Below, one piece after another: positions 52,166 through 54,295 of a stretch of DNA of 64,000 nucleotides. Source of the stretch: Pyrenophora tritici-repentis (taxonomy: Eukaryota > Ascomycota > Dothideomycetes > Pleosporales > Pleosporaceae); assembly GCF_003171515.1 (NCBI RefSeq), contig NC_089390.1, positions 7,998,001 to 8,062,000 on the forward strand, read 5' to 3'. The first letter of the stretch is position 1. Each line of letters starts with the position of its first letter. A program made the translations under genes and the position numbers. The notes below the pieces were generated by a model that ran no database searches, was not told where the DNA came from, and saw nothing but the letters and a program-made list of their open reading frames with translations.

Positions 52166-53293
52166 ATGGGTGATATGATGCGCGCAGTAGGTCCGTACAT
52201 AATGCACTCACCACCTAAACCCCAACAGGCTAAACTTGACAGACATCAAACATGGCAAAGGCCCCCTCGAAAACCTCCACATCGCCGACGTGCCCAAACC
52301 GAAGCTGGGAAAGTCGCAAGCACTCGTCAAGATCAAAGCCTTTGGCCTGAACCGCATGGATCTCCTGCAGCGCGAAGGACAATACCCTGTTCCCCCCGGT
52401 GCATCTAAGATCCTAGGCGTAGAATTCTCAGGCACCATCGCAGAGCTAAGTGCCGAAGGCGGTGGAAAAGAAGGTTTCAAAGCGGGCGATGAAGTGTTTG
52501 GTTTAGCGTACGGAGGCGCATATGCAGAGTACATTGCCGTATCCACACACATGCTTGTGCGGAAACCCAACGAGTTGACATGGGAGCAATGCGCCGGTAT
52601 TCCAGAGGTACGTCTGTTGACAAGTCTCTACACAGCTAGCCCAGCCAACTAACTAAACATTCACAGACATGGATCACAGCCACGCAAGCCATGTACCTAG
52701 TCGGCCACTTTGCGCCCGGTAAAACCATCCTCTGGCACGCAGCCGCCTCCTCCGTATCCATCGCCGGTATTCAGCTGTCCCGGTCAGACAGCGCCGCCGC
52801 TGTCTATGCAACCGCCCGTCAGGACAGCAAATGCGACTTTGCCGTCAAGGAACTCGGCGCCACGACCGCCTTCAACACAACGTCGCAAGACTGGGTACAA
52901 GAGGTTATGAAAGCAACAGACGGAAAAGGCGTAGACATCATCGTCGACTTCATCGGCGCCTCATACTTTCAAGCTAATCTCGACGCCGTGGCCAAGGACG
53001 GTGTCATTGTGAACTTGGGCTTCATGGGTGGCACAAAGCTTCCAGAGGGAACGGATATTAGTGCCTTTATTAGGAAAAGGTGCACTTTTGTCGGTAGTAG
53101 TCTGAGGAGTCGCGATGAAGAGTATCAAGGCAAGCTTAGGGATCAGCTTGTTGAGCATGCGCTACCTAAGATCAAGGATGGTAGCTTCAAGCTCTTTGTG
53201 GAAAAGGTACTACCGTGGGAGCAGATCCAGGATGCGCAGAGGTTATTACAGGAGAACAAGACAAAAGGTAAGGTAATTTGTACAATTGGGTAG
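52166..53293 (+). CDS. NADPH:quinone oxidoreductase-like MDR protein (TP53I3/PIG3 type)
   Basis: Three exons: 52166-52190, 52243-52607, 52667-53293; 338 residues. The first exon codes only MGDMMRAV plus one base. Its donor is GTCCGT, weak at the third base, but it is the junction that yields VDIKHGKGP in frame. Landmarks of the zinc-free medium-chain reductases: ALVKIKAFGLNRMDLLQREG, ILGVEFSGTI, FGLAYGGAYAEYI, HAAASSVSIAGIQL (NADPH region), GVDIIVDFIGASYF and VIVNLGFMGG. It likely reduces quinones or other enones. Soluble. Confidence 0.9.
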
Positions 53294-53425: not shown

Positions 53426-53446
53426 AAAAAAAAACCCCTAAAAAAA
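53426..53446 (-). terminator. Pol III-type T-run terminators after the tRNA pair
   Basis: On the minus strand, T7 (53446-53440) begins 6 nt after the end of the AGA tRNA gene and T9 (53434-53426) follows. No run of four or more T lies in the 16-nt gap between the two tRNA genes. Confidence 0.65.
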
Positions 53447-53451
53447 TTATA

Positions 53452-53586
53452 CGACGTTGGCCAGATTCGAACTGACGCTCCCGAAGGAACAAGATTTCTA
53501 GTCTTGCGCGATAACCACTCTTTATGCCTGTTAGTTTACTGTCCGAATCCTACCAGGATAAATCTAGACTTACCCGCCACAACGCC
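53452..53586 (-). tRNA. tRNA-Ser(AGA) with an intron-like insert in the D arm
   Basis: Reading the minus strand, the acceptor stem GGCGTTG (53586-53580) pairs over all seven bases with CAACGTC (53459-53453, one G-U), with discriminator G at 53452. T8-G9 and GCGG follow, then a 54-nt insert (53573-53520), then AGTGGTTAT-CGC. Without the insert the D stem GCG/CGC, anticodon arm CAAGA-CTAGAAA-TCTTG (anticodon AGA), a 13-nt variable arm with a UCC-UUCG-GGA hairpin, and T arm GTCAG-TTCGAAT-CTGGC are all complete: 81 nt, a normal class II serine tRNA. G73 is right for Ser. The insert has GTAAGT, ACTAAC and AAG. Confidence 0.85.
53520..53573 (-). other. 54-nt GT-AG intron-like insert in the tRNA-Ser(AGA) D arm
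   Basis: It starts GTAAGTCTAG and ends CATAAAG, with AAACTAACAG 19 nt from its end. It lies between tRNA positions 13 and 14, inside the A box. Length and signals equal those of protein-gene introns in this window. An early CAG lies directly after the branch site, so CATAAAG is the inferred acceptor because only it restores the D arm. Confidence 0.7.
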
Positions 53587-53602
53587 TAAAGTACATTTGA
53601 CG

Positions 53603-53753
53603 CGACACCTGTGTGATTCGAACACACGCTCCCGAAGGAACTGGCTAACTTTCCCAAAGGGACTAGCAGGCCAGCGCGTTAACCACTCTAGAGTAGTTTG
53701 TTAGCGGATAATGCACACATTGCGAGGTACAACTGCTTACCCGCCAAAGTGCC
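53603..53753 (-). tRNA. tRNA-Ser(GCT) with a D-arm insert and an anticodon-loop intron
   Basis: On the minus strand the acceptor GGCACTT (53753-53747) pairs with AGGTGTC (53610-53604, two G-U), discriminator G at 53603. T8-G9 and GCGG are followed by a 53-nt insert (53740-53688), then AGTGGTTAA-CGC. The anticodon arm is CTGGC-CTGCTA, then a 17-nt intron (53663-53647), then A-GCCAG, giving anticodon GCT with the intron just after position 37, the normal eukaryotic place. T arm GTGTG-TTCGAAT-CACAC and the same 13-nt variable arm as its neighbour complete an 81-nt tRNA. It lies 16 bp upstream of the AGA gene on the same strand. Confidence 0.85.
53688..53740 (-). other. 53-nt GT-AG intron-like insert in the tRNA-Ser(GCT) D arm
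   Basis: It starts GTAAGCAGTT, contains CCGCTAACAAAC 17 nt from its end, and ends CTCTAG. It occupies exactly the same tRNA position as the insert in the neighbouring gene. The two share splice signals but little other sequence. Confidence 0.7.
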
Positions 53754-54295
53754 CAGTTGAAACTGATGATTGATGAGAAATTTTTGTTTTACCAAATAAT
53801 TGTAGTTTAGAATTGAGCGCTGGAAGGTAGGCAAGAATAGTATAGAGTACGTGTCCTCGGGTAAGGATGGAGTACTGTTGAGGTATAGTATGTGGATACG
53901 TGGTGTGGGGCGGGGTAAAAGGGCGGTCTGGTGCGGGGATTGAAGACGTAGGTCAGGCAAATGCTGACGTATTCTTGACAAGGGACTTCGTAGTACATCG
54001 TCTGTGTATTGACTACGGAAACCACTCGGTTATAATATTTGAATTTTCAACCTAACTACATACTTATTATTACAACTACTACTTAAGTTATGCATATATC
54101 TGTGGCGCTATCTATCCCTTTGGTTATCTGTTCCATTCAATTCATAGCGGCACCATCAAGACCTCGCTTCTCGCTATCGAATGCTTTGCTTTAAAACATG
54201 GCAAAAATAAAAAGAATACATAAAGAAATTCGGGGAATCATAAATGAAACAGACATACACACCCTTTAAGTCCCCCCTCCACCCTGTCACCATCA
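53754..54295. other. 5' flank of the tRNA pair and 3' region of the kelch gene
   Basis: About 540 AT-rich bp. No gene is supported. Confidence 0.4.

Follow-up and report, generated by a model that had tools for sequence, protein, structure and literature searches.

Candidate spliceosomal introns in the D-arm region of nuclear tRNA genes of Pyrenophora tritici-repentis

In the genome of Pyrenophora tritici-repentis, two neighbouring serine tRNA genes are interrupted in the D arm by short segments that are very probably U2-type spliceosomal introns, residing in genes of RNA polymerase III. At the level of sequence, no fewer than ten tRNA genes, spread over six isotypes, show the same arrangement at positions 8-21, which would most likely make tRNA a new host class for spliceosomal introns. 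We lean towards the further view that two unrelated splicing machines serve a substantial share of the nuclear tRNA genes and that at least one tRNA, Leu-CAA, is supplied only via the spliceosome, so that translation would depend on splicing of the mRNA type.

A pair of split serine tRNA genes

The window, i.e. the whole stretch of 64,000 nt that was analysed (C1:7998001-8062000), belongs to a genome assembled into 41 contigs that total 40.9 Mb. For one of its proteins the closest named relatives are Pyrenophora teres, with a match of 89%, and P. seminiperda, with 75%. A preliminary description had placed in it a tRNA-Ser(GCT) and a tRNA-Ser(AGA) gene, each with a GT...CTAAC...AG segment in the D arm and each splicing to 81 nt. 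The segments and their coordinates proved right, as the spliced forms equal intact copies elsewhere in the genome. The common length held for Ser-AGA only, since Ser-GCT without its D-arm intron is 98 nt long and comes to 81 nt only when a second intron of 17 nt in the anticodon loop, not mentioned before, is also taken out (ARAGORN gct i(38,17)). The features of the pair are as follows.

53770..53775, minus strand: CATCAA element upstream of tRNA-Ser(GCT), common to other tRNA genes of the genome
53603..53753, minus strand: tRNA-Ser(GCT) gene with two introns, first of the pair; spliced form 98/98 identical to the intact copy at C1:4529844
53741..53753, minus strand: tRNA-Ser(GCT) exon 1, positions 1-13
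53688..53740, minus strand: tRNA-Ser(GCT) D-arm intron, 53 nt, GTAAGC...GCTAAC...TAG, between positions 13 and 14
53647..53663, minus strand: tRNA-Ser(GCT) canonical anticodon-loop intron, 17 nt; ARAGORN i(38,17), coordinates from the sequence
53587..53602, no strand assigned: spacer between Ser-GCT and Ser-AGA, 16 nt; its coding strand has no T run of 4 or more (no Pol III terminator)
53452..53586, minus strand: tRNA-Ser(AGA) gene with D-arm intron, second of the pair; spliced form 81/81 identical to the intact copy at C2:3225860 and to the spliced copy on C3
53574..53586, minus strand: tRNA-Ser(AGA) exon 1, positions 1-13
53520..53573, minus strand: tRNA-Ser(AGA) D-arm intron, 54 nt, GTAAGT...ACTAAC...AAG, between positions 13 and 14
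53440..53446, minus strand: T7 run 3' of tRNA-Ser(AGA), at which Pol III probably terminates after transcribing the pair

In the unspliced window ARAGORN finds no tRNA, nor does any place reach the Rfam gathering score, the two that come up standing at 16.9 and 15.0 bits with the cut-off at 29. Once the segments are removed ARAGORN calls both Ser-GCT and Ser-AGA, and the intact copies identical to the spliced window genes score 55.8 bits (AGA) and 47.9 bits (GCT).

The two genes and the spacer probably form one transcript, because the spacer lacks a run of four Ts, a T run follows Ser-AGA, and Ser-AGA has neither an exact CATCAA nor a TATA[AT] upstream, each of these elements being present in 26 of 43 genes and both being absent in 5 of 33 intact ones. 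Dimeric tRNA-Ser/tRNA-Met transcripts are known from fission yeast, where likewise two tRNAs lie a few bases apart before one terminator; the pair described here differs in that both partners are serine tRNAs, each with a D-arm intron. By eye, the open reading frame adjoining the pair (52691-53293) resembles the C-terminal portion of a quinone oxidoreductase/alcohol dehydrogenase.

Intact copies and the intron boundaries

The preliminary description had asked whether intact Ser-GCT and Ser-AGA genes exist elsewhere in the genome, and they do. There are two intact Ser-GCT copies, at C1:4529844 (98/98, 17-nt intron included) and C1:2593266 (96%), and one intact Ser-AGA copy, at C2:3225860, identical to the spliced window gene over 81/81 nt. 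Since the spliced genes equal these copies, the intron boundaries can be set without recourse to splice motifs. Five split genes were compared in this way with an intact paralog of the same anticodon, and Ser-TGA with Ser-AGA (3 mismatches); the boundaries set by paralogs thus cover six of the ten split genes, the other four having no paralog to set them. The alignments fit equally well at two registers in every Ser gene and in Glu-CTC, and at four in Gln-CTG; in all six genes (Ser-GCT, both copies of Ser-AGA, Ser-TGA, Gln-CTG and Glu-CTC) exactly one of the registers is GT..AG.

The exons agree closely between split and intact genes. Those of Ser-AGA are identical over 81/81 nt across three loci, two split and one intact, and those of Gln-CTG and Glu-CTC are the same as in their intact twins as far as the anticodon loop, over comparisons of 39 and 37 nt. 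The window Ser-GCT gene shares its 17-nt anticodon intron with C1:4529844, while C1:2593266 has a different one of 18 nt; within the pair formed by C1:4529844 and the window gene, either a D-arm intron has arisen or disappeared or the exons have undergone conversion. If the segments are introns as proposed, the coexistence of intact and split twins with identical exons makes intron gain and loss traceable. Intact serine tRNA genes were also found for CGA (one) and TGA (one). The latter, L100 at C10:2262425, is a second tRNA-Ser(TGA) gene that is divergent, carries a canonical intron and is very unlike the Ser-TGA gene with the D-arm intron.

Split tRNA genes elsewhere in the genome

Ten nuclear tRNA genes of six isotypes were found with introns in the D-arm region, all between positions 8 and 21 (8/9 to 20/21). 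Besides the two of the window they are the following.

C3:2052979: tRNA-Ser(AGA), second split copy; BLAST of spliced forms and pattern search
C2:2046775: tRNA-Ser(TGA), split; BLAST and pattern, RNA family search 30.1 bits
C9:1953196: tRNA-Leu(CAA), split, intron 15/16; patterns and splice tests
C9:518126: tRNA-Ala(CGC), split, intron 10/11; pattern requiring CTAAC
C4:999310: tRNA-Pro(CGG), split, intron 20/21; pattern requiring CTAAC
tRNA-Glu(TTC), split, intron 13/14; patterns and splice tests
tRNA-Gln(CTG), split, intron 11/12 if read as GT-AG, the alignment also allowing positions up to 14/15; patterns and splice tests
tRNA-Glu(CTC), split, intron 8/9; patterns and splice tests

With the introns removed, the split genes give a full cloverleaf in ARAGORN. 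An anticodon intron is present as well in seven of the ten; both Ser-AGA genes and Ser-TGA lack it. Gln-CTG is read as Lys by ARAGORN, with the anticodon intron misplaced, and its isotype was taken from the exons of the intact Gln-CTG twin. For Leu-CAA a split locus was the only one found in a single BLAST search of the genome; being a single locus, and split, it is the best candidate for real spliceosome dependence.

These ten genes and 33 intact ones make up an enriched sample and no census, with one doubtful gene (L135) and the tRNA-like repeats left out. A looser Ser-type pattern gave 23 matches in the genome, all of which were cut out and tested, yielding four tRNA-Ser genes (in five rows). 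Of two further patterns, one gave 15 matches, comprising four known Ser genes and 11 others of which six were examined, and the other gave 21, of which six were already known and five of the remaining 15 were examined. A T-loop pattern gave 221 matches, 100 of them listed and 69 examined, from which came three split and 11 intact non-SINE tRNA genes and ten tRNA-like repeats. A pattern requiring CTAAC gave 27 matches, namely four known Ser genes, two tRNA-like repeats, eight copies of another repeat, and 13 that were examined and included two tRNAs. Patterns starting with TAGC and TGGT yielded no tRNA among the 13 of 42 and 8 of 38 matches examined, and in the genome scan with RF00005 63 of 1172 first-look candidates were scored, so that this list is incomplete.

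The selection is biased towards splice motifs insofar as Ala-CGC and Pro-CGG came from the CTAAC pattern and only segments with GT, AG and a branch motif could enter the splice tests. The sample least biased in this respect is that of the T-loop pattern, where among the 69 examined of 100 listed matches three of 14 non-SINE tRNA genes are split. The 11 that are intact include a doubtful case, L135 (C3:1599250-1599540), which ARAGORN calls Glu(ttc) with an unusual anticodon arm and whose isotype is uncertain.

Splice signals, size and divergence of the introns

The ten introns are 51-63 nt long, with donors GTAAG, GTACG or GTGAG and AG ends, and in all ten a CTAA[CT] places the branch A 10-17 nt from the intron end, the branch motif having been part of the search for some of them. 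The resemblance to protein-gene introns of the window in size and signals, which had been pointed out in the preliminary description, was confirmed: joining of reading frames gave 14 candidate protein introns, with 3 in the reversed control, of median length 58.5 nt and with a branch distance of 9-18 nt in 13 of the 14. The fungal intron pattern given in the excerpted text of PMC5832005 has GTRWGT at the donor and RCTRAY at the branch site, with 6-36 nt separating the branch from the acceptor.

Beyond these signals the four Ser introns have little in common. Five of the six pairs among them lie within 2 sd of shuffled sequences and one stands at 2.36 sd, and the two split AGA copies have introns that cannot be aligned with each other. 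That the exons of the three AGA copies are identical and the Ser introns are not alike points to selection acting on exons and splice signals, or to exons homogenised by gene conversion.

A chance origin of the segments was rejected on the strength of splice-test controls, a GTDB search and the paralog comparison. When GT[AG]NG...CTAA[CT]...AG segments were cut out of 121 small loci (206 segments), 8 of the loci gave a tRNA spanning the junction. None of the 121 did so in any of five dinucleotide-shuffled sets, which offered 74-109 segments each, or when mirrored motifs served as decoys, with 64 segments to remove. Because several of the eight were picked by such motifs and the shuffles destroy the tRNAs as well, this control is weak and the weight rests on the paralog comparison. 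The sole Ser-type pattern match in GTDB contigs (L098) sits in a bacterial bin, its title and reading frames look bacterial by eye, and it gave no tRNA on splicing; it was rejected as a fungal contaminant and taken as a chance match. In viral contigs that pattern had no match. A D-arm look-alike of the form TAGCTC/GTAAGT...CAG/AG (L075) likewise gave no tRNA and was discarded.

Promoters, terminators and the A box

CATCAA lies upstream of 7 of the 10 split and 19 of the 33 intact genes, with a background of 1.25%, and the counts for TATA[AT] are the same (7/10 and 19/33), with a background of 4.9%. A downstream run of at least five Ts is present in nine of the ten split genes, the exception being Ser-GCT, the first of the pair. 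Nine of the ten introns fall within the A box (positions 8-19), which stays whole only in Pro-CGG (20/21). A split A box should weaken TFIIIC binding, and by analogy with fission yeast the upstream TATA elements may help Pol III at such genes. The idea that the 3' end of the intron re-creates the A box was dropped: by eye a match with one mismatch is seen in the Ser-AGA gene of C3, Ser-TGA, Ala-CGC and Glu-CTC and not in the others, which on a hand count does not exceed chance.

Proposed removal of the introns

The pathway that best accounts for these genes would begin with a tRNA precursor transcribed by Pol III, which for the window pair would probably hold Ser-GCT, the spacer and Ser-AGA in one molecule. 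The spliceosome would take out the D-arm introns by lariat splicing and the D arm would thereby be rebuilt, while tRNA endonuclease would excise the 17-nt anticodon intron of Ser-GCT and tRNA ligase would join the exons. The preliminary description had taken the segments for introns of the spliceosomal type and had seen no obvious bulge-helix-bulge (BHB), and in this it is well supported at the sequence level by the GT-AG ends set by paralogs, the branch sites, the intron size and the lack of a BHB. Its proposal that these serine tRNAs need the spliceosome is the weaker part: intact copies of Ser-GCT and Ser-AGA, named in advance as evidence that would tell against it, exist, so these two tRNAs may not strictly depend on the spliceosome and the window genes may be redundant.

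That the introns are instead non-canonical ones of the kind found in archaea and the red alga Cyanidioschyzon merolae, with the tRNA splicing endonuclease as the enzyme that removes them, we regard as highly improbable. Their position and the coexisting anticodon intron do resemble the C. merolae tRNA-Ile(UAU) with its D-arm intron at 12/13, as described in the part of PMC9602550 available, and the four Ser genes, read at the GT-AG register, form 3 of the 4 outer-helix pairs of a would-be BHB. The central helix of that structure, however, forms only 1-2 of 4 pairs at this register in all ten genes, close to the average of 1.27 for random sequence; at the alternative register, which was examined for the Ser genes, it forms 0-1 of 4. 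The earlier remark that no obvious BHB is present therefore extends to all ten. The introns moreover lie at 8/9 to 20/21 and not at the canonical 37/38, and all ten carry a spliceosomal donor, branch site and acceptor, for which BHB introns have no reason.

The split loci could also be silent pseudogenes into which intronic sequence was inserted, with intact copies doing the work. This would fit the intact Ser-GCT, Ser-AGA, Gln-CTG and Glu-CTC copies and the interruption of the A box in nine of the ten, but in five split genes the exons are identical to the intact copy (over the 39 and 37 nt compared for Gln-CTG and Glu-CTC) while the AGA introns cannot be aligned, promoter elements and terminators are mostly retained, and BLAST, the only search made for it, detected no other Leu-CAA locus; we judge the pseudogene account improbable. 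Introner-like elements are known from Dothideomycetes, and the anticodon intron shared by the window Ser-GCT and C1:4529844 indicates that gain or loss of the D-arm intron may be recent, both of which would suit recent copies of such a mobile intron that landed in tRNA genes by chance, whatever their removal. Against this, the four Ser introns share little beyond the splice signals, with one pair only exceeding 2 sd, and we take this origin to be extremely improbable. U2-type spliceosomal introns in Pol III tRNA genes remain our preferred reading.

Relation to known systems

To our knowledge, eukaryotic tRNA introns have been treated as the business of the tRNA endonuclease alone, with at most one per gene. 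The tRNAscan-SE 2.0 paper, in the text seen of it, describes eukaryotic tRNA genes as limited to one intron (PMC8450103). The canonical introns, at 37/38 and removed by tRNA endonuclease, also reside in nuclear tRNA genes, and seven of the ten split genes carry one in addition; the introns described here differ from them in position (8-21), in length (51-63 nt), in having splice-site and branch motifs, and in that the endonuclease structure was not found.

The nearest parallels are in other small RNAs. Fission yeast U6 RNA has a spliceosomal intron (PMC10484740, excerpt), and according to the excerpted text of PMC5832005 (2017) such introns occur in fungal U6 and U3 genes, U3 and U6 being named there as the only small structured RNAs known to be interrupted often by an intron. 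As in our genes, these are short GT-AG introns with an RCTRAY branch site in small structured non-coding hosts, those of U3 lie mostly in the 5' half, and intron-bearing and intronless U3 paralogs stand side by side in some genomes (PMC5832005, same excerpt). The difference is the host, which here is tRNA of at least six isotypes; on present sequence evidence the tRNA D-arm introns would work like those of U6 and U3. No report of spliceosomal introns in tRNA genes was found in the open-access titles and opening lines of abstracts among the matches listed; an earlier report in subscription papers, preprints or tRNA databases is possible.

The D-arm introns of C. merolae are cut by the endonuclease. 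There, as far as the excerpt of PMC9602550 goes, they occur together with anticodon and T-arm introns, and the D-arm location and the presence of several introns in one tRNA gene are what that system and the archaea have in common with ours. Archaeal non-canonical introns, however, have a BHB (PMC8450103, in part), where ours show none and carry spliceosomal signals instead.

If the proposed reading is true, spliceosomal introns in six isotypes would open tRNA to spliceosomal control and pose the problem of how Pol III transcribes genes whose A box is interrupted. The genes would also offer natural test substrates for the splicing of transcripts with first exons of 8-19 nt, and standard tRNA finders would be missing real genes, as neither window gene is seen by ARAGORN or Rfam.

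tRNA-like repeats and mitochondrial tRNAs

The genome holds a tRNA-like element of 84 nt in at least 19 copies (e.g. C1:458516-458599), each scoring 46.1 bits in the RF00005 scan. Four of five copies read (L041-L045) share, by eye, a 3' tail with an inverted repeat, and ARAGORN reads the element as Arg(tct); it is probably the tRNA-Ser-headed SINE of Pyrenophora tritici-repentis described in PMC3538342, as judged from the portion of that paper at hand. A second tRNA-like family, beginning GGGGGGATGGCGCAGTGGTAAAGCG, has ten copies (L113, L118, L122, L123, L126, L128 and L185-L188), which ARAGORN reads as Gly (acc, once gcc) with an implausible intron; its 5' head is that of the 84-nt element and its middle is different. 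Contig C41 (183 kb) carries tRNAs of the mitochondrial type.
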